A DNA stretch of 64,000 nucleotides from Negativibacillus massiliensis. GTDB lineage: Bacteria > Bacillota > Clostridia > Oscillospirales > Ruminococcaceae. Below the pieces are notes generated by a model. It was not told the DNA's origin, searched no databases, and saw nothing but the letters and a program-made list of their open reading frames with translations. Within the stretch, counting starts at the first letter, position 1, and every line of letters begins with the position of its first letter. Where the stretch lies: contig NZ_FTRU01000008.1 in assembly GCF_900148495.1 (NCBI RefSeq), forward strand, positions 1,302,001 to 1,366,000, written 5' to 3'. Positions 8,900 to 27,260 of this stretch are shown piece after piece. A program made the position numbers and the translations under genes.

Positions 8900-10300
8900 T
8901 CAAAGTTTTCTTTCCAGTACGGGAGCAGAAAGTTTCTCCCGAATCACCTTGATATCTTCGCTGTCCGGTTCCCAATCCAGTGAGATTCTGACAAGGAATC
9001 GATCCCAGCAAATAAGATATTCATTGAGCGGTGTTTTTTCCGCTCCAGCAACCGCATATTTCCGATAGACTCGGTCTGCCTGCCATCGTTCATCCTCAAT
9101 TGGAAAAAATTCCTCATCTTCGACCCACCAATCATCCTGTTGCAAACCGTTCAGACAAAGATCATACAGAACCGGCAGCCTTACCTCCACAATCTGATAA
9201 TAAAGTTCCGGAGCATTGGTTTCTCCCCGTTCTCTCTGCGCCGCTGCATAACACTTTGCAAGGATACTCTCGTCCTTTCTGGTCCACTTATAGCTGTAAA
9301 CGGTTTCTTCCATTTCTTTCATATCTTCCACCCGCAGCGGGATTTGATCATCATAAACTTCCCATTCGATTCCATCTTTGGAAAGGTAGATATCAACCGG
9401 CTGAGGGTCCAATTTTTCTTTCCAAACACTTTTCTCCCAGCCCAACTCCCAAGAAAGGATTCCTGCTGCACAAACCACACTAACTGCGACCATGACAAGT
9501 GTGGAAAGCGACTGATTTACTTTTCTCTTTTTCATCCAGACTCTCAGCCAGCTGCATATAGCAACCATAAAAAGAAACAGGCCTATACGGACCATAACAT
9601 AGATGCGATCTGATAAAGGATAAATCGTTACAAACGCAAGCACTACTGCGAAAAAAGAGAGCAGAATCAATCCTTTTGTCACCCAATGATTCCATCGAGT
9701 AAGTGTCACACACCTGCCGCCTGACCGGACAGATGCTTTGCTCGCACGATACCAGTTCCAATACCCCAAGATGGTCCACAGCAAATATACCAGAAAAGCC
9801 ACTGTGAAGACGGTTCCCCAAAAAATTGAGGAAATCGTCAATGCGGACAGTGGGGTTTTGATTAGGTTTACCCCAGAAGAAAAGGACAGTACACTCATAA
9901 TCAAAAGCAGGAATAGATTCGTTTTCAAATATTGCTGTCTCATGCAGAGATGGATGTTATCGAGTTTTGCCGCTTCATCCGTTTCGATTGGAATGGGATT
10001 TTCCTGCTCGCTGTAGAAAATCTGCATCTGCATCCACTCAGCGCACAGCCTCCAGCCTGCCTGCTCGCAGGATTCCAGAAAGATCTCCTGATTTTCGGTG
10101 TGCTGCATATTTTCATCCGAGGCTTCCCAGAAATAAGTCACCGCAAATTTGAGCTTCTGCGGCTGGATTTTGCGATATTTCCAGAATCCATTCCAAATTT
10201 TCTCCAGCATCCAGCCTTTCTGCGCCATCTTCTCCAGATGAATCGTAATGTTGTCATAATCGTAAAAGCTGAATCCTTCCATCCGATATCTTACCTTCAT
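8900..10300 (-). CDS. DUF2812-domain membrane protein (PadR-linked)
   Basis: A 466-residue protein. Residues 1-110 match the DUF2812 pattern ('DNITIHLEKMAQKGWMLEKIWNGFWKYRKIQP' and 'FLESCEQAGWRLCAEW'). Four or more membrane segments follow at about residues 130-155, 165-190, 210-230 and 240-290. The C-terminus is soluble and repeats the DUF2812-like 'YRYKWTRKDES'-type region. Its ATG overlaps the stop of the PadR gene by 4 bp, so the two are translationally coupled. DUF2812 proteins are typical partners of PadR repressors; their biochemical role is unknown. A shorter paralogous module lies at 18750-19606. Confidence 0.82.
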   Translation of the reverse strand: MKVRYRMEGFSFYDYDNITIHLEKMAQKGWMLEKIWNGFWKYRKIQPQKLKFAVTYFWEASDENMQHTENQEIFLESCEQAGWRLCAEWMQMQIFYSEQENPIPIETDEAAKLDNIHLCMRQQYLKTNLFLLLIMSVLSFSSGVNLIKTPLSALTISSIFWGTVFTVAFLVYLLWTILGYWNWYRASKASVRSGGRCVTLTRWNHWVTKGLILLSFFAVVLAFVTIYPLSDRIYVMVRIGLFLFMVAICSWLRVWMKKRKVNQSLSTLVMVAVSVVCAAGILSWELGWEKSVWKEKLDPQPVDIYLSKDGIEWEVYDDQIPLRVEDMKEMEETVYSYKWTRKDESILAKCYAAAQRERGETNAPELYYQIVEVRLPVLYDLCLNGLQQDDWWVEDEEFFPIEDERWQADRVYRKYAVAGAEKTPLNEYLICWDRFLVRISLDWEPDSEDIKVIREKLSAPVLERKL

Positions 10301-10620
10301 ACTCCTTCCTCCTCCCGCATGAACTGCTCATAATCCTGCATCTGCTTTTGCAGCCGCTGATATTCTTCTTTGAGCATCGCCTTACCCTCGTAGGTAATGA
10401 TATAATTCCGCTTCCTGCCCTCTGCCCGGGTTTGCCGGATTGCTCCCACTTCCTCAAAGCTTTCCAACAGGTTATACAGCGTACCTGGCCCGATCATTAC
10501 CCTGCCCTTGGTCATTTCCCGTACCTTTTCCATGATATCGGTTCCACAGCACTCTTCCCGCAGGCAGAGCAGAATATAAAACATCTGTTCGGTCAGTATC
10601 TGAAATTTTTCTCTCGGCAT
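10297..10620 (-). CDS. PadR-family transcriptional regulator
   Basis: A 107-residue winged-helix repressor: 'TEQMFYILLCLREECCGTDIMEKV' is followed by 'IGPGTLYNLLESFEEVGAIRQTRAEGRKRNYIITYEGKAML', the standard PadR N-terminal domain, and a short C-terminal dimerisation helix. The ATG at 10620 is chosen because GAGGTG lies 7 bp upstream; a GTG three codons earlier overlaps that site. It very probably autoregulates through the palindromic operators at 10653-10702 and controls the coupled DUF2812 gene. Confidence 0.92.
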   Translation of the reverse strand: MPREKFQILTEQMFYILLCLREECCGTDIMEKVREMTKGRVMIGPGTLYNLLESFEEVGAIRQTRAEGRKRNYIITYEGKAMLKEEYQRLQKQMQDYEQFMREEEGV

Positions 10621-10652
10621 CCAGGTCACCTCTTTTCTATTAATCTCAAGTT

Positions 10653-10746: not shown

Positions 10747-11454
10747 CTAATATCTGTTGTAGGCTGTCGTTTCATTAAAATAATCTTTCAGTTTTTCCAA
10801 CGCTTTTTTCTCGATGCGGGACACATAGGAACGGGAAATATCCAGCTTTTTAGCCACCTCACGCTGCGGCAGAGGACGGACATTGTATAATCCATACCGA
10901 TAGGTTAGTATTTTCTGCTCCCTTGGTTCCAGATTCTGTTCGATAAAGTGATAGAGCTTCTGTGACTGGATGCTCAGGTCAATGCTGTCCAGGATGTTTT
11001 CATCGTCCTGCACAATATCCATCAGAGTGATGGAATTTCCATCCTTATCAATATCAATCGGGTCGCTAATGGAGATGTCCTGCATACTCTTTCTCTTCTG
11101 CCGAAAGTGCATGAGGATCTCATTTTCAATACATCTGCTTGCATAGGTCGCAAACTTGGTTCCCTTGCTGCTGTTAAAGCTGTTTGCTGCTTTAATGAGT
11201 CCTATTGTGCCAATCGAAATCAAATCCTCCTGATCCCGATAGCTGGCGTAATATTTCTTGATGATGTGGGCAACCAAGCGCAGATTGTGTTCAATCAGCT
11301 TGTTTTTTGCCTGCTCATCCCCTTCCTGTATGCGCTCCAGACACTCTTCTTCCTCTTCCTTAGACAGGGGCTTTGGAAAAGATCCGCTGCCGGTCACGTG
11401 AAGCGCCAGATAAATCATGTTGCACAGTGCCACCAATACCATTGCTGAATACAT
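10747..11454 (-). CDS. sigK: Sporulation sigma factor sigma-K, uninterrupted
   Basis: This late mother-cell sigma factor has 235 residues. The N-terminus (MYSAMVLVALCNMIYLALHV) is a hydrophobic pro-sequence-like segment followed by 'FPKPLSKEEEEECLERIQEGD'. Region 2 reads 'NLRLVAHIIKKYY...DLISIGTIGLIKAANSF' and 'FATYASRCIENEILMHFR'. Region 4 ends 'REVAKKLDISRSYVSRIEKKALEKLK'. The ATG at 11454 follows GGAGGAATGAAACG. The gene is complete and not split by a skin element, but its promoter region ends only about 190 bp from the left att half-site of the split cotJC gene. A candidate sigma-E promoter is annotated at 11510-11538. Confidence 0.93.
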   Translation of the reverse strand: MYSAMVLVALCNMIYLALHVTGSGSFPKPLSKEEEEECLERIQEGDEQAKNKLIEHNLRLVAHIIKKYYASYRDQEDLISIGTIGLIKAANSFNSSKGTKFATYASRCIENEILMHFRQKRKSMQDISISDPIDIDKDGNSITLMDIVQDDENILDSIDLSIQSQKLYHFIEQNLEPREQKILTYRYGLYNVRPLPQREVAKKLDISRSYVSRIEKKALEKLKDYFNETTAYNRY

Positions 11455-11509
11455 CGTTTCATTCCTCCAGATTTCTCCCAATATTTGATGCACAAGGCAT
11501 GTTAATGTT

Positions 11510-11587: not shown

Positions 11588-11755
11588 TTACTCCGATTTA
11601 AGAAAACTCCTGTCAAGGTTTACAGCAGTTTCAAATAAAAACAATATCTTAAAGAGATTGGGTCCACCCAACTGAGAGATGATTACTTTTGCAGCAGCCG
11701 CATTTGGATGGGCAATCTTAACCGGATACTCCAGTTTTTTTGAATATGTCCACAT
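11588..11755 (-). CDS. cotJC: CotJC 5' fragment, cut at the left att half-site
   Basis: The first 32 codons are a normal CotJC start ('MWTYSKKLEYPVKIAHPN', then 'AKVIISQLGGP'). After that the reading frame enters unrelated sequence ('NLFKILFLFETAV...') and stops after 55 codons. CotJC is a spore-coat manganese-catalase-like protein, and all its metal-ligand residues lie in the missing part. The gene has its own AGGAGG overlapping the cotJB stop, so the operon start is intact. The missing remainder lies at 23080-23613 on the same strand and in the frame needed for joining at the shared core. Whether this fragment makes a stable peptide is doubtful. Confidence 0.85.
   Translation of the reverse strand: MWTYSKKLEYPVKIAHPNAAAAKVIISQLGGPNLFKILFLFETAVNLDRSFLKSE
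11644..11671. other. Left recombination half-site (attP-type arm outside, attB-type arm inside)
   Basis: Plus strand: arm ATATCTTAAAGAGATTGGGT (11644-11663), then the shared core CCACCCAA (11664-11671). The outer arm is the mirror image, in 15 of 20 positions, of the outer arm at 23608-23627. The inner side is cotJC coding DNA. Confidence 0.75.
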
Positions 11756-11767
11756 GATCTCTTCCTC

Positions 11768-12073
11768 CTATCTCTGTGATGGATTTTCTGCCGCACTTTG
11801 GTTGTGTTCAAGATCCCACGGCCACGGATCATCCACCCAGTTCCATCTGGTGTCTCCCTCCATTACGGTCGGTTCCAATGCACCAAATTGTTTTACATAT
11901 TCTGCTTTTGCCTGATCTAAAAGCTGCTGATGCTTGCTGTAATATTTTAAAGCCTGTTGGTCATCCGGATGGCTATCCAGAAAGAGTCCGGCTTCAATCA
12001 GGGCAAATTCGCACATCTGAATTCGTTTCATCAGTACCTGACGGATGTTACTTTGCTGCATGTTTGCCTGCAT
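11768..12073 (-). CDS. cotJB: Spore coat protein CotJB
   Basis: A 101-residue CotJB: 'LMKRIQMCEFALIEAGLFLDSHPDDQQALKYYSKHQQLLDQAKAEY' with the conserved tail 'WNWVDDPWPWDLE'. It is made in the mother cell and deposited in the coat together with CotJA and CotJC. The start at 12073 follows GGAGGCGG and overlaps the end of cotJA by 26 bp, which indicates tight coupling. The AGGAGG for cotJC overlaps its stop codon. Confidence 0.92.
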   Translation of the reverse strand: MQANMQQSNIRQVLMKRIQMCEFALIEAGLFLDSHPDDQQALKYYSKHQQLLDQAKAEYVKQFGALEPTVMEGDTRWNWVDDPWPWDLEHNQSAAENPSQR

Positions 12074-12266
12074 TCAAAACCGCCTCCTCTCCGATAAATG
12101 GTTTGTCAAGCTGAGAAAAAATGGTTCCCCGCTCTAATCCCAAACCTGCTTCGTATAAATCTTCCCATTCCTGCCGCGGCACATAGGCCATTGCCAGGGA
12201 AATCGGCTGACTGGTAAACACCGCGCATCCGCTGGTGTTCTCTTTATCCTCTCGCTGAAACAGCAT
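12048..12266 (-). CDS. cotJA: Spore coat protein CotJA
   Basis: A 72-residue CotJA-type protein: 'SQPISLAMAYVPRQEWEDLYEAGLGLERGTIFSQLDKPFIGEE' matches the coat-associated CotJA core (the 'AYVP.Q.W...Y....L..GT.F..L..PF' pattern). AAGGAGCG precedes the ATG at 12266. It is the first gene of cotJA-cotJB-cotJC, and the operon is cut only in cotJC. Confidence 0.9.
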   Translation of the reverse strand: MLFQREDKENTSGCAVFTSQPISLAMAYVPRQEWEDLYEAGLGLERGTIFSQLDKPFIGEEAVLNAGKHAAK

Positions 12267-18749: not shown

Positions 18750-19286
18750 CTAGAATAAATCGGCAGCACACTGCTCCAACTTTTTTCTTTTTTGACTGTT
18801 TTTTCTCGCTTGCTTTAACATTATCACACCTAGAACAGCAAGAAACATTGGCAAAATAATAAGTGCATGATCTTTTTTTACTGCTGGGATTGCTGTAAAA
18901 AACATAAAGAAAAAACATACTCCTGACAGAACATAAAATATTTGTTCCATTTTCCTGTATTGTTGTTTCTTGGATTCTGCATCACTGTATAGCTCAAAAA
19001 CACCCTTATCCGATAATTTTCTTAAAACTACCCAAAATAATCTTTGCTGTACTATCTCTATATCTCCTTCTTCCTTTAAAAAAGTCAGGTACTCCTCTTT
19101 TTCTTGTTCATCCTCCGGCAGAATATCAATTCGATATGTATACTGTCTTTTATCAGAATGCTCAAAGATATAGATTCCCAAACAGTTTTTTTTCATATTC
19201 CATCCTTTATCTGCCATCTCGTTGAGCCACTGCTCTTCTTTATCTTTATCAAAATAAAACTTCCATCTTACCAGTTTTTCTTTCAT
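18750..19286 (-). CDS. Short DUF2812-domain membrane protein
   Basis: A 178-residue protein. Residues 1-95 are DUF2812 ('WKFYFDKDKEEQWLNEMADKGWNMKKNCLGIYIFEH' and 'YLTFLKEEGDIEIVQQRLFWVVLRK'). Two membrane segments follow at about residues 118-135 and 140-160, then a basic tail. It overlaps the PadR stop by 4 bp, as in the larger module at 8900-10620. The two modules are paralogous in plan but differ in length and operator. Function unknown. Confidence 0.82.
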   Translation of the reverse strand: MKEKLVRWKFYFDKDKEEQWLNEMADKGWNMKKNCLGIYIFEHSDKRQYTYRIDILPEDEQEKEEYLTFLKEEGDIEIVQQRLFWVVLRKLSDKGVFELYSDAESKKQQYRKMEQIFYVLSGVCFFFMFFTAIPAVKKDHALIILPMFLAVLGVIMLKQARKNSQKRKKLEQCAADLF

Positions 19287-19606
19287 TCTGCTTCCTCCTC
19301 CCGCATCAGATGACTGTTATTTAACATCTCGGTTAATCGATCACACTCTGCAAAAAAAGCCCTTCGTCCTTCTTCGGTAATTAAATATTCTTTTTTCTTC
19401 CTCGAATCATTCTGCTGACTGTAAAGGGAGATCCATCCCCGTTCCTCCAGCATCTTTAACGCTCCATATAATGTTCCTGCCCCAAGTACCAACCTTCCAT
19501 TGGTCAGTTCCTGTACTTCCTGTATAATGCCATATCCATGCTTTGGCTGACGCAGTGCAAGCAGTACATAAAACAGCGCGTCGGTCAATGGCTGCATTCG
19601 TTCCAT
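19283..19606 (-). CDS. PadR-family transcriptional regulator
   Basis: A 107-residue PadR winged helix: 'LTDALFYVLLALRQPKHGYGIIQEVQELTNGRLVLGAGTLYGALKMLEERGWI' and 'RKKKEYLITEEGRRAFF'. AGGAGGCGATAAA precedes the ATG. It is translationally coupled to the DUF2812 gene. An ATATATCGT/ACGATATAT palindrome and a consensus promoter lie immediately upstream, so autorepression is likely. It differs clearly from the PadR at 10297 and should bind a different operator. Confidence 0.92.
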   Translation of the reverse strand: MERMQPLTDALFYVLLALRQPKHGYGIIQEVQELTNGRLVLGAGTLYGALKMLEERGWISLYSQQNDSRKKKEYLITEEGRRAFFAECDRLTEMLNNSHLMREEEAE

Positions 19607-23079: not shown

Positions 23080-23613
23080 TTATTTCTGTCTGTTTTTTCG
23101 GTTTACGTCAAACTCCGGATTAAATGCATAAAAGTTTTTGCTGTCCAGCTGCTCCTGCGCAATTCGAAGCATCTCACCAAACCGCTGGAAATGTACAATT
23201 TCTCTTGCACGCAAAAACTTGATTGGTTCCCTGACATCCGGATCATCCACCAGTCGCAAGATATTGTCGTAGGTGACACGCGCTTTCTGCTCTGCTGCAA
23301 GGTCTTCTACCAAGTCACAAATAATATCTCCGGTCGACTGAAGGGTGGATGCGGAAAAAGGAACACCGGATGCAGCCTGCGGATAGATGCCGGTTGTGTG
23401 ATCGACAAAGTAAGCTTCCATTCCGCCTTCCTTGATTTCTTCCACACTCAATCCTTTGGTCAACTGGTACAGGATTGCGCTGACCAGTTCAATATGTGCC
23501 AGCTCTTCTGTACCAATATCGGTCAGCCCTGCTTTGATCTGTCCCCATGGAGCAGTGTAACGCTGGCTTAAGTATCGTGTCGCTGCACCAAGCTCTCCAT
23601 CTGGACCACCCAA
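23080..23613 (-). CDS. cotJC: CotJC 3' part (manganese-catalase-like coat protein), cut at the right att half-site
   Basis: This supplies CotJC residues 29 to the end: 'QLGGPDGELGAATRYLSQRYTAP', metal-ligand regions 'GTEELAHIEL', 'DLAAEQKARVTYDNIL' and 'REIVHFQRFGEML'. It has no usable start: the only upstream in-frame ATG (23667) lies inside a terminator hairpin without a ribosome binding site. Joined to the fragment at 11588-11755 across the shared core (CAG TTG GGT GG | T CCA), the frame gives a 205-residue CotJC of normal family length. It is therefore a silent half-gene in the present arrangement. Confidence 0.88.
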   Translation of the reverse strand: MGGPDGELGAATRYLSQRYTAPWGQIKAGLTDIGTEELAHIELVSAILYQLTKGLSVEEIKEGGMEAYFVDHTTGIYPQAASGVPFSASTLQSTGDIICDLVEDLAAEQKARVTYDNILRLVDDPDVREPIKFLRAREIVHFQRFGEMLRIAQEQLDSKNFYAFNPEFDVNRKNRQK

Positions 23614-23627
23614 TTGCAATAAGATAT
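23606..23627. other. Right recombination half-site
   Basis: Core CC (23606-23607) followed by arm ACCCAATTGCAATAAGATAT (23608-23627). The reverse complement of the left outer arm matches it in the first 7 and last 8 of 20 positions, exactly the split dyad expected of a large-serine-integrase attP. The shared 8-bp core with the left site is CCACCCAA (23606-23613). Confidence 0.75.
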
Positions 23628-23631
23628 GAAA

Positions 23632-23668
23632 AGAATGGGCGCCTTTTTTTATCAGAAAGGCGCCCATT
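23632..23668 (-). terminator. Terminator insulating cotJC 3' part from phage lysis genes
   Basis: AATGGGCGCCTT pairs with AAGGCGCCCATT, followed on the minus strand by CTTTT. It lies 3 bp after the stop at 23672. Confidence 0.75.
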
Positions 23669-23671
23669 TTA

Positions 23672-24028
23672 TTAATCTGTAGGACTCATTTTGTCCTTTA
23701 GCACAGTTACCCTGTCTTTTACTGGAAGCTCCCGCAAATCCTCCATCAACTTGGTTACTGTACCATTGCCGCCGAGATTATGATACTCGGTGTACATTTT
23801 CTCGGCAGCCTCCAAACCGTGCAGAGTGATCCAGCCACGCTCGGTGTAATGATAATATGCCTGCACCACCCGATCACGCAGCAGTGCCTGAATTCCAAAC
23901 TCAATTGCCTTTTGCCGACAGTCTTCCTGTTTTTGTCGATTCCACATCATCTTGACGATAAAACTCAGTCCGGTCAAAATTCCCGAAAACAACGCTTCCA
24001 GCCAATATTTTGCCAGCCATTCCACCAT
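23672..24028 (-). CDS. Phage-type small membrane protein next to holin
   Basis: A 118-residue protein with one N-terminal membrane segment (residues 5-25, 'WLAKYWLEALFSGILTGLSFIV'), a basic stretch, and a helical domain 'AIEFGIQALLRDRVVQAYYHYTERGWITLHGLEAAEKMYTEYHNLGGNGTVTKLMEDLRELPV'. The 'GxQALLRDRxxQAYxHYxxxG' pattern is familiar from prophages of Clostridia, where the gene sits beside holin and lysin. Its exact role is unknown. The start at 24028 follows AGAGGCGGTATAAA. Confidence 0.72.
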   Translation of the reverse strand: MVEWLAKYWLEALFSGILTGLSFIVKMMWNRQKQEDCRQKAIEFGIQALLRDRVVQAYYHYTERGWITLHGLEAAEKMYTEYHNLGGNGTVTKLMEDLRELPVKDRVTVLKDKMSPTD

Positions 24029-24029
24029 T

Positions 24030-24368
24030 TTATACCGCCTCTTTTGTTCTGTGCTTTGTATCCAGCCCCAAGTCTTTCCAGGCATTCTCGATGGCAATTC
24101 GAACAGTATCCATATCAATCTTGATTCCATGTTTTTGGCATTGCGATTCAATATAGCTGCTCACCCATTCGAGCTTTTCTTCTCCTTTTCCCTGTGCATC
24201 AAAAATAATCTCCGCTGCCTGCACACCTGCCAGTGCATAATTCTTTACTGTTTCCCACTGAACATTGGTAAGCTTTGTACGAATAAGCGGCACAATCACA
24301 CTTGTTACCAGCACCGAAAGCAGTCCGATCAGCGCGGCAACAATCTGGGTAATATCAATATCCTGCAT
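24030..24368 (-). CDS. Phage holin, LL-H type
   Basis: A 112-residue protein: one N-terminal hydrophobic segment ('ITQIVAALIGLLSVLVTSVIVPLI', residues 6-30) and an amphipathic helical tail ('WETVKNYALAGVQAAEIIFDAQGKGEEKLEWVSSYIESQC'). This matches the LL-H holin family, whose members form membrane lesions that let endolysin out. It lies between the endolysin and the small membrane protein, 1 bp from the latter. Confidence 0.82.
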   Translation of the reverse strand: MQDIDITQIVAALIGLLSVLVTSVIVPLIRTKLTNVQWETVKNYALAGVQAAEIIFDAQGKGEEKLEWVSSYIESQCQKHGIKIDMDTVRIAIENAWKDLGLDTKHRTKEAV

Positions 24369-24396: not shown

Positions 24397-25161
24397 TTAT
24401 ACTGTTTTTACTGTTCCTGCAAAACCCTTTTTCTTCAGGTCATCACAGGTGATCTGCGCTTTTTTCTCTGTGTCAAAACGACCTACACAAACACGATCTA
24501 TTTCCTTTACACTGTAAACAAACGCATAGTATCCTTTGTCTGCAAGTTTGCTGCACAGTCCTTCTGCTAAATCATGTGCTTTGGAAAAGGTTTTCACTTC
24601 TACCGTATAGGGCAGATATTTTGCCATATCGTCCACCTCCTCTTCTATCTTGCTGTAATCAATGAAAGGACACTCCATCCAGTGGGTCCAGGCTGTTGCA
24701 CCTCTTCCTCGCAGTGGGGTTTTGACTGCGCCGCGATTTCCGGCACACTCAATTACCCATCCATTTCCAATATAGACCCCAACATGTCCCTGCATATAAA
24801 CACAGATTCCTGCGCGCTCTGGGATGGTGTCGATTGTCCCTTTTCGGGTAGCAGCATCGTACATCATTCCGGTATTATAGTCGAGATCCGCTCGGTAGAT
24901 CGGCTTGTTTTCTTTGTCAGACCACATACAGTAACCTTTAATTAGCCCCACACAGTCACATGCTGTCTGTCCAAGGTGTTTTTTGTGGATCTCTTTGTTT
25001 GCTCCTCCATTATAAAGCGGGTACTGTTTGGCTTTTGTTTCCAAAAGACTCTCGGTCAGTTTGTTGCCAAAGGTTCCCCAGACATACCACCATTTTTCAT
25101 TGAATGCTTTTTGAGCGTGTTTGATAAGTCCCTCTGGCGTTTTTCCTGTTACAATCGGCAT
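24397..25161 (-). CDS. NlpC/P60 endolysin with C-terminal SPOR-like repeat
   Basis: A 254-residue cell-wall hydrolase. The catalytic region is NlpC/P60-like: Cys in 'TACDCVGLIKGY', His in 'AGICVYMQGHVGVYIGNGW'. Residues 185-254 ('PYTVEVKTFSKAHDLAEGLCSKLADKGYYAFVYSVKEIDRVCVGRFDTEKKA') resemble a SPOR peptidoglycan-binding domain. There is no signal peptide, as expected for holin-dependent release. AAGGAGAATGGTAAA precedes the ATG. It is the first gene of the lysis cassette. Confidence 0.88.
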   Translation of the reverse strand: MPIVTGKTPEGLIKHAQKAFNEKWWYVWGTFGNKLTESLLETKAKQYPLYNGGANKEIHKKHLGQTACDCVGLIKGYCMWSDKENKPIYRADLDYNTGMMYDAATRKGTIDTIPERAGICVYMQGHVGVYIGNGWVIECAGNRGAVKTPLRGRGATAWTHWMECPFIDYSKIEEEVDDMAKYLPYTVEVKTFSKAHDLAEGLCSKLADKGYYAFVYSVKEIDRVCVGRFDTEKKAQITCDDLKKKGFAGTVKTV

Positions 25162-25460: not shown

Positions 25461-25703
25461 TCAAAAAAGTGTTTCATTCTCACTCTTCTTTTCTCCTTCT
25501 AAATGTTGTGTGCCGATATAATCGGACATCACTCTCCCTGCACGCTCCATCATCTCCTGAACCATTTTTTCCCATTCCTCTGCTAAAATATGGTGTTCTT
25601 CCTGTATCTTATTTCCCTGGACATATAAAACCGTGCTCACCGGCAATACCGTTTCATCATTTAGACGGATAAAACTTGTTGCACTGAAATTTTTTCCCGA
25701 CAC
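25461..25703 (-). CDS. Small protein divergent from serine recombinase, candidate directionality factor
   Basis: An 80-residue protein with a GTG start at 25703, 8 bp after GGGAGG. The N-terminal half is beta-like ('SFIRLNDETVLPVSTVLYVQG'), the C-terminal half helical and acidic ('EEHHILAEEWEKMVQEMMERAGRVMSDYIG'). I do not recognise a characterised family. Small proteins encoded beside large serine integrases often act as recombination directionality factors that switch the enzyme from integration to excision, as SprB does in SPbeta. The position, size and coiled-coil-like helix fit that role, but this is inference. Confidence 0.6.
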   Translation of the reverse strand: MSGKNFSATSFIRLNDETVLPVSTVLYVQGNKIQEEHHILAEEWEKMVQEMMERAGRVMSDYIGTQHLEGEKKSENETLF

Positions 25704-25811
25704 GACGCACACCTCCCATTCATCCTATGCTTTCCGCTCTGTTTTTTATGATACTATCCTTCTTTTTGGGGATAACAGCTGCATATCCTTTCTTAAAAAG
25801 GAGGGTTATGT

Positions 25812-27260
25812 ATGAAAATTGCTGCTGCTTACATCCGTGTTTCCACCGATGACCAGCTGGAATATTCCCCTGACAGCCAGCTTGTACAGATTCACCGCTA
25901 CGCTAAAACAAACGGCTTTACCCTGCCAGAGGAATACATCTTTATAGAAGAAGAGGGGCGTTCCGGCCGATACAGCGTAAAACGTCCTGAGTTTTTGCGA
26001 ATGATTTCCACCGCAAAAAAGAAGCCCAAACCTTTTGATGCAATTCTGGTTTGGAAGTATTCCCGTTTTGCCCGCAGCCGTCAGGACAGCATCATTTACA
26101 AGTCTATGCTGCGCAAGGAACTGGGAATCGAGGTCATCTCAATCAGCGAAAATCTGGGTGATGACAAGATGTCCATTATCACCGAGGCGATCATTGAGGC
26201 GATGGACGAATTTTACAGCGTAAACCTTGCCGAAGAAGTGACCCGCGGTATGGCGGAAAAAGCCCGCCGGGGCCAGCCCCTGACCTACGCTCCCTTTGGC
26301 TATCGCATCGAGAACAAACGCTATTTTCCTGATCCAGACACTGCCTTGCTGGTACAGATGATCTATTCCGATTTTCTGTCCGGCATGGGCTATCGGGAAA
26401 TTGCGCAAAAGCTTGACCAAATGGATGTTCGCACCCGATTTGGCAATCGGATGGAAAGCCGAAATATCGAATATATCTTAAAAAATCCTGTGTATATCGG
26501 GAAAATCCACTGGAATCCGGGTACAAAGATGCAACGTAGTGTCTTGCCAAACTCCGCTATTCTTTCCGATGGTGAGCATCCCGCTTTGGTAAGCCTTGAT
26601 GACTGGAATGCTGTTCAGAAACGAATCAAAGAGTTAAAAACACTCTATCAAAAAAAGGCAAAATCCGCCGTCATCCCCGAACATGAATTTGCCCTTCGGG
26701 GACTGGTGCGGTGCAGCAGCTGCGGCTCGACTCTGGTAAACAGCGGCAATAGCTCTCTTCAATGCAATGCCTATGCCCGTGGCCGGTGCAGCGTATCCCA
26801 TGCAATCAACCGGGAACATCTGACCCAGTTGGTTCTTTCCACCATACAGACCGACTTTGCAGAAAGCCGCTTTCAACTGAATCTGCCAAAATCTGCTCCA
26901 AGTATTGACCCTTTTACCCTTCTGCAAAACCAGTTGGAACGGGAACAGATGAAATTAAAACGGATTCAGCAAGCCTACGAAGCAGGTGTTGATACTCTGA
27001 AAGAGTATTCCCGAAGCAAGGAAAAACGAACCGCCTGTATTCGTCAGCTGCAAGAACAACTGGAAAAACTGTGTCTCTCTTCCAACCCCAGCTTAGATGA
27101 CAACCGCCATTATGTCAGCAATCAGTCTCTTTCCCTTCTTGCCTTTTTAAAAGACCCGAACAACTCAGAAAAGGAGAAAAACATCCTGCTGCGTTCATTG
27201 ATTGAAAAAGTCGTGTTTGATCGTCAGAAAAACAGCATCGAAATATCCTACTATTTGTAA
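25812..27260 (+). CDS. Large serine recombinase (site-specific integrase/excisionase)
   Basis: A 482-residue recombinase of the SpoIVCA/phiC31 class. The catalytic domain has Ser11 in 'YIRVSTDDQ', 'GRSGRYSVKRPEF', and 'VWKYSRFARSRQDS' with conserved arginines. The recombinase domain reads 'PFGYRIENKRYFPDPDTALLVQMIYSDFLSGMGYREIAQKLD' and '...RNIEYILKNPVYIGKI'. A zinc ribbon follows (CxxC in 'CSSCGSTL' and CX6C in 'CNAYARGRC'), then a coiled coil at about residues 375-425. All parts are present, so it should be active. AAAGGAGGGTTATGT precedes the ATG. It lies 2.2 kb from the right att half-site and is the obvious enzyme for the split cotJC gene. Confidence 0.94.
   Translation: MKIAAAYIRVSTDDQLEYSPDSQLVQIHRYAKTNGFTLPEEYIFIEEEGRSGRYSVKRPEFLRMISTAKKKPKPFDAILVWKYSRFARSRQDSIIYKSMLRKELGIEVISISENLGDDKMSIITEAIIEAMDEFYSVNLAEEVTRGMAEKARRGQPLTYAPFGYRIENKRYFPDPDTALLVQMIYSDFLSGMGYREIAQKLDQMDVRTRFGNRMESRNIEYILKNPVYIGKIHWNPGTKMQRSVLPNSAILSDGEHPALVSLDDWNAVQKRIKELKTLYQKKAKSAVIPEHEFALRGLVRCSSCGSTLVNSGNSSLQCNAYARGRCSVSHAINREHLTQLVLSTIQTDFAESRFQLNLPKSAPSIDPFTLLQNQLEREQMKLKRIQQAYEAGVDTLKEYSRSKEKRTACIRQLQEQLEKLCLSSNPSLDDNRHYVSNQSLSLLAFLKDPNNSEKEKNILLRSLIEKVVFDRQKNSIEISYYL

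Follow-up and report, generated by a model that had tools for sequence, protein, structure and literature searches.

The cotJC gene of Negativibacillus massiliensis, which we take to be a sporulation (spore-coat) gene, is split in frame into two parts within the 64,000-nucleotide stretch of DNA analysed here (the window). The two half-sites at the split are the attL and attR hybrids of a single attP × attB pair of a large serine recombinase (LSR), a reading made without recombination data. The layout is inside out: host DNA lies between the gene parts, and the recombinase lies outside them with a phage remnant. Because of this arrangement, a circle excised by recombination of both sites would carry the rebuilt cotJABC operon; cotJC would be restored on that 12-kb circle and not on the chromosome, where attP would stay. 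This outcome is inferred, again without recombination data.

The split gene, its hybrid sites and the phage remnant

The cotJC gene is encoded on the minus strand, with a 5′ part (about codons 1–31; 11664–11755) that ends at 11664 and a 3′ part (23080–23607; to codon 205, with the Mn_catalase domain PF05067) that begins at 23607. The split falls at the codons of a conserved GGP motif, at about codon 31–33. The reciprocal join restores a complete in-frame CotJC, beginning MWTYSKKLEYPVKIAHPNAAAAKVIISQLGGPDGELGAATRYLSQRYTAPWG..., with CAGTTGGGTGGTCCAGATGG as the junction sequence. No further cotJC match was found in a genome-wide search of this genome, G000. The 11,942 bp between the crossovers (segment 11664–23607, no strand) are host DNA with a cotJC half at either end, and could be released as a circle with an intact cotJABC. 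The genes of this block are, in order, the 5′ part of cotJC, cotJB (11768–12073, minus strand, PF12652), cotJA (12048–12266, minus strand, PF11007), an FNR-type regulator, a ferredoxin, a hydrolase, an ABC transporter, an acetyltransferase, DUF2812/PadR, two successive FeoA genes, FeoB, a winged-helix regulator and the 3′ part of cotJC. The in-frame gene and this layout are shown directly by the data. An ordinary prophage between the sites was considered and rejected, since the 12 kb are host genes and the LSR is outside.

On the left flank, a sigma-K-like gene (10747–11460, minus strand) is uninterrupted. Two PadR + DUF2812 gene pairs are also present on the minus strand, at 8900–10629 and 18750–19606, with the left att site between them. 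The left pair sits between sigK and an HTH gene, two genes that are directly adjacent in the sister genome G002.

The left hybrid site (11644–11685) consists of a phage arm at 11644–11663, ATATCTTAAAGAGATTGGGT, the core CC at 11664–11665 and a cotJC arm at 11666–11685. The right hybrid site (23586–23627) has its cotJC arm at 23586–23605, its core CC at 23606–23607 and its phage arm, ACCCAATTGCAATAAGATAT, at 23608–23627. Neither site is assigned a strand. An 8-bp word, CCACCCAA, is common to both present sites, at 11664 and 23606. Joining 11644–11665 to 23608–23627 gives a 42-bp attP, ATATCTTAAAGAGATTGGGT-CC-ACCCAATTGCAATAAGATAT, whose arms are complementary at 16 of 20 positions (counted from the centre, 1–7, 10 and 13–20). 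An initial annotation, made from the sequence alone, had described this site as two 20-bp arms around CC, obtained by joining the DNA left of 11665 to that right of 23607, and had given the arm pattern as seven matched, five unmatched and eight matched positions. Both claims held, except that position 10 pairs too. Its further claim that such symmetry would not arise by chance also held. In the null, every pair of window positions with any common 8-mer was joined likewise, in both orders, and the best dyad was taken over every centre in the core; window-wide, 1 of 127,474 null joins reached 16.

Unjoined, the present hybrid sites score 10/20 and 6/20; for attB, the reciprocal join, the score is 10/20. 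With up to 3 mismatches allowed, no intact copy of the joined attP was found elsewhere in the 2.88-Mb genome. The expected features of an LSR att system, namely, a long attP dyad around a dinucleotide, a weaker attB dyad and a short common core (here the 8-bp word), are all met. Since a 16/20 dyad is rare in the null and CotJC comes out of the reciprocal join whole and in frame, we read the pair as the products of attP × attB recombination. The reciprocal join plays no part in the dyad test. The dyad and the frame each point, independently, to a single conservative recombination at the CC/GG dinucleotide. The large-serine-integrase attP architecture recognized by the initial annotation is supported on independent grounds: the cotJC frame is restored, an intact LSR gene lies 2.2 kb from the right site, and the same GG/CC centre is found in relatives. 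That both ends were made by one recombination event, as the annotation also proposed, is supported as well, but the proposal was incomplete on topology. It missed the inside-out layout, in which the DNA between the arms is host DNA with both gene halves rather than the element.

The phage remnant, of ~3.7 kb, lies right of 23607, and beyond it host genes are found again (an AMP-binding enzyme, VanW). On the minus strand, it encodes a phage protein of unknown function (phrog_4105; 23672–24151), a phage holin (24030–24368; PF09682), a probable lysin with a SPOR domain (24397–25161; PF05036), the lysin role being inferred from position, and an 83-aa conserved protein, orf25461 (25461–25712). The LSR gene is on the plus strand (25812–27260). 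The 482-aa product is intact, with complete Resolvase, Recombinase and zinc-ribbon domains, as in an LSR system. The orf25461 gene has been retained beside the LSR gene despite the loss of most phage genes, and has a homologue (48%) in the G002 prophage. It is a possible candidate for the directionality factor, by position alone; the factor itself has not been identified. We conclude that the element is related to the prophage found within cotJC in G002 and is degraded, with the holin, the lysin, the small protein and the intact LSR left. A search of IMG/VR found no phage with a close LSR or with an intact attP.

Split cotJC genes in the genus and the family

The split in G002 falls at the same cotJC codon as that in G000. 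The C-terminus of an LSR lies about 120 bp from the 5′ part of cotJC, which is followed by cotJB, cotJA, FNR, ferredoxin, hydrolase and ABC genes, in the order seen in the window. The 3′ part has a similar right arm beside it and is on a separate contig, adjoining restriction genes; an LSR N-terminal part of 80% identity is on a further contig with phage repressor genes. We consider G002 to have the ordinary form of the split gene. The G002 DNA downstream of the 3′ part of cotJC and that downstream of the FeoB-regulator block map to remote positions in G000 (C1:450 kb and C1:692 kb). Gene order around cotJ, thus, differs between the two genomes, and the mapping does not fix the path of the permutation. 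In a third genome, G003, a right arm of closely similar sequence is present at the codon of the G000 split, and cotJC is split again near codon 47–65. In G003:C172 (L055 1253–3524), the ABC-transporter gene of the cotJ neighbourhood directly adjoins the 3′ part of cotJC, possibly a hint of fluid gene order around the split cotJ in the genus. G003 is not supported as a second inside-out case in the genus, as the DNA left of the ABC gene does not match.

As a separate observation, sigK is also split in four relatives in the genus: G001 (L105 10328–17215), G002 (L106 8460–10536), G003 (L107 2003–2365) and G004 (L108 611–2435). An LSR gene is inside or adjoins the split in G001, G002 and G004, as in skin-like elements; in G003, the 5′ part alone was found, with foreign DNA after it.

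In the wider family, 297 genomes of completeness ≥95% were surveyed, and 223 had a cotJC match. The best match was essentially full-length in at least 114 genomes and a high-identity partial match in at least 36. These two counts are lower bounds, and contig ends may account for some of the partial matches. Two sets of genomes were searched in full, the second of them chosen for partial best matches or good assemblies and so not a random sample. In these sets, cotJC fragments end near codons 32, 64, 135 and 175, and almost all of the junctions examined have an LSR gene that lies tens to a few hundred bases from one fragment. Genomes G010, G059, G124, G194, G214, G244 and G297 have two or three splits. 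Element size varies between 2.6 kb in G100, with one LSR, and about 90 kb in G018; the LSR gene is the only large gene of the G100 element (L170 1704–4931), which is among the smallest here.

A tree of 59 LSR sequences places all 24 codon-32 LSRs in one clade (support 100/100). Codon 64 has two lineages, and codons 135 and 175 have one main lineage each. The tree needs 7 site-label changes, against a mean of 30 after shuffling. Some of the LSRs were gathered by similarity to the LSR of the window, the adjacent site not being a selection criterion. We conclude that cotJC is a multi-site LSR target in the family, split nearly always with an LSR beside one end.

The attP was rebuilt in the same way for 13 codon-32 junctions. 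In 11 of these (G000, G002, G024, G032, G016, G059, G188, G214, G224, G124 and G194), the highest-scoring dyad has a GG of the same cotJC region at its centre and 9–16 of 20 positions complementary, and recurrence at the same codon is, in this respect, shown. An ATATC-type outer arm is common to G000, G024, G214 and G224 on both sides and is found in G002 on one side. The lowest scores (G188, G002, G032) are weak taken alone. The reconstructions for G035 and G100 gave no clean register, and a naive search for the core was unsuccessful in G100, G188 and G035, where the cores were 3–6 bp long or off register; these three are not used as strong support. The survey bears on the initial annotation in two ways. 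Dyads on the same GG/CC centre recur when the joined site is reconstructed in relatives, and an uninterrupted cotJC frame extends across the site in many of them. Element-free relatives carrying both arms would have refuted it and were not seen; the G000 genome has no intact attP, and cotJC is uninterrupted in many relatives.

The ordinary order, with both cotJC parts on one contig, is found in about 30 genomes, so that the skin-class feature of an element between the gene parts, which fails in G000, is met in those relatives. Two further genomes depart from the ordinary order. G126, a single-contig genome of 2.69 Mb, has codons 1–64 at 198.6 kb and codons 59–184 at 873.3 kb (L190 3115–3306, L191 2767–4712). 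The pieces are on the same strand, permuted and 674 kb apart, with the LSR adjoining the 3′ part; the joined attP scores 16/20 around GG, and the reading frame joins correctly. In contig 23 of G010, codons 1–64 and 61–136 are on opposite strands about 31 kb apart (L079 3955–5798, L080 7536–7763), with a 10-bp common core and a 14/20 dyad at the junction. Since the pieces are on opposite strands, cotJC would be rebuilt there by inversion and not by excision.

Proposed mechanism and rival explanations

We propose that an LSR of the cotJC-specific lineage recombined a phage-type attP with an attB inside cotJC, giving the two half-sites. In the mother cell, during sporulation, the LSR and a directionality factor would recombine both sites, releasing the 11,942-bp circle with the intact cotJABC operon and its own upstream region and leaving attP on the chromosome. 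The gene would then function from the circle in the mother cell, which dies anyway. Because the mother cell is terminal, a circle-borne cotJ operon would suffice, provided that recombination is confined there. By analogy with skin, SPbeta and gin, the LSR alone would carry out attP × attB recombination, and a small directionality factor would permit attL × attR. As a whole, this explanation, combining one LSR recombination, a permuted order and release of the circle in the mother cell, is the one that we favour, by a modest margin. The att pair and the intact LSR are shown; the activity of the LSR, the timing in sporulation, the directionality factor and the origin of the permutation are inferred, with no expression or recombination data. 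A scan for sigma-E and sigma-K consensus sequences upstream of the LSR gene, orf25461 and cotJA did no better than shuffles.

If both phage and chromosome were ordinary, a single integration could not have produced this map, because host DNA with both gene halves lies between the arms. Two routes to the permuted order are possible. A cotJ-bearing circle may have integrated into a chromosomal attP in one attP × attB event, a route matched by the single event of the initial annotation. Alternatively, a later rearrangement, a block exchange, may have followed an ordinary integration.

The rival that survives best has the same LSR origin and holds that the split is now a dead scar: with most phage genes gone, the directionality factor perhaps among them, and the order permuted, rejoining of the halves no longer takes place, which leaves the strain with a cotJC pseudogene. 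For it are the loss of most phage genes, a layout that no longer allows excision to restore cotJC on the chromosome, and the cost of excision in an ordinary cell, which would lose FeoAB and other genes. Against it, both cotJC parts and the LSR gene are free of stops and frameshifts and are conserved against G002, and cotJB and cotJA are open reading frames. In the comparison of G000 with G002, dN is 0.09 for the 3′ part of cotJC, with dS saturated, and dN is 0.13 and dS 1.3 for the N-terminal part of the LSR. Both have been conserved although cotJC is split in both genomes; that conservation is shown, and it says nothing about the time since the permutation. We judge the dead scar a serious contender, but clearly less likely than the favoured reading and well short of an even chance.

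A second rival, which we consider very unlikely, is that the permuted order is an assembly error and that cotJC is, in the actual chromosome, interrupted by an ordinary element. In its favour, there are no reads with which to check the assembly, and about 30 relatives have the ordinary order. Against it, the window is within a 1.69-Mb contig of an 8-contig assembly, and only 8 bp are common to both sites, too short for a misjoin. Moreover, the three unusual junctions (the sigK side, the LSR/AMP-binding gene and the regulator/3′ part of cotJC) are unrelated unique sequences, and the single-contig relative, G126, is permuted too. Finally, that the dyad is a chance inverted pattern, as can arise in AT-rich intergenic DNA, where a terminator-like hairpin (23626–23676) does start at the outer end of the right arm, is all but excluded by the null, the in-frame product of the reciprocal join and the common dyad centre in independent relatives, combined.

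Our favoured reading, mother-cell release of the circle, can be extended. It is tempting to suggest that cotJC is a "scrambled" gene: the germ line would keep its pieces in permuted (G000, G126) or inverted (G010) order, and serine recombinases dedicated to each site would put them together in the dying mother cell alone; the two parts of this claim stand together and are no more than possible. If so, a working cotJC in G000 would exist only on the excised 12-kb circle, assembly in G126 would split the chromosome, and assembly in G010 would flip a 31-kb segment.

Known gene-intervening elements and the meaning of the cotJC series

The mechanism belongs with the gene-intervening elements of sporulation genes: skin, SPbeta in spsM, vfbin, vrin, gin and yin (PMC4191935, PMC5595907, PMC10747680). 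As with skin in sigK of B. subtilis and C. difficile, a sporulation gene of the mother cell is interrupted, in frame, by phage-derived DNA that brings a site-specific serine recombinase of its own, and joining of the att sites restores the protein; these skin-class features are met here. Skin, however, targets sigK and lies between the sigK parts, so that its excision restores sigK on the chromosome, whereas the cotJC parts in G000 enclose host DNA. The SPbeta prophage in spsM (PMC4191935) likewise combines a large serine integrase with a prophage in a spore-envelope gene, but it is an intact prophage of ordinary topology, in contrast to the 3.7-kb remnant of G000, which is outside the segment to be excised. 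The elements vfbin (spoVFB), vrin (spoVR), gin (gerE, PMC5595907) and yin (yabG, PMC10747680) are also in sporulation genes, and gin, which is without phage genes, resembles the 2.6-kb LSR-only element of G100. For each of them, a single site in a single gene has been reported; cotJC is split at four or more sites, which separate LSR lineages serve, and also occurs in a permuted form.

In C. difficile, the prophage phi027 (PMC11222575, PMC12122855) is found beside a CotJC homologue, but it is described as adjacent to the CotJC-like gene, at attR, and not as splitting it. Site-specific clusters of diverse LSRs that converge on one conserved host-gene site have been described (PMC10083194); the main-text examples there are a Mg-chelatase/ATP-dependent protease and a prolyl isomerase, and catalase is absent from the main text. 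In the literature searched, no description of cotJC as a split gene was found; most subscription journals and all preprints were outside the search, and priority is unproven. What is new here is the target gene, its several dedicated sites and the inside-out order of G000, which fails one defining feature of the class.

The known sporulation rearrangements are a handful of cases with one site per gene and the element inside the gene. cotJC is hit repeatedly, at four or more preferred cut sites, with one or two LSR lineages mainly responsible at any one site, and it is split in a large share of the genomes of a gut-associated family. Having many LSRs whose attP/attB pairs can be reconstructed at a single conserved locus may aid in decoding LSR site specificity. 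The series is also natural material for asking whether such insertions are parasitic safe harbours or developmental switches, and the permuted case poses the sharper question of whether a gene rebuilt on excised DNA can be of use, given that the cell is terminal.
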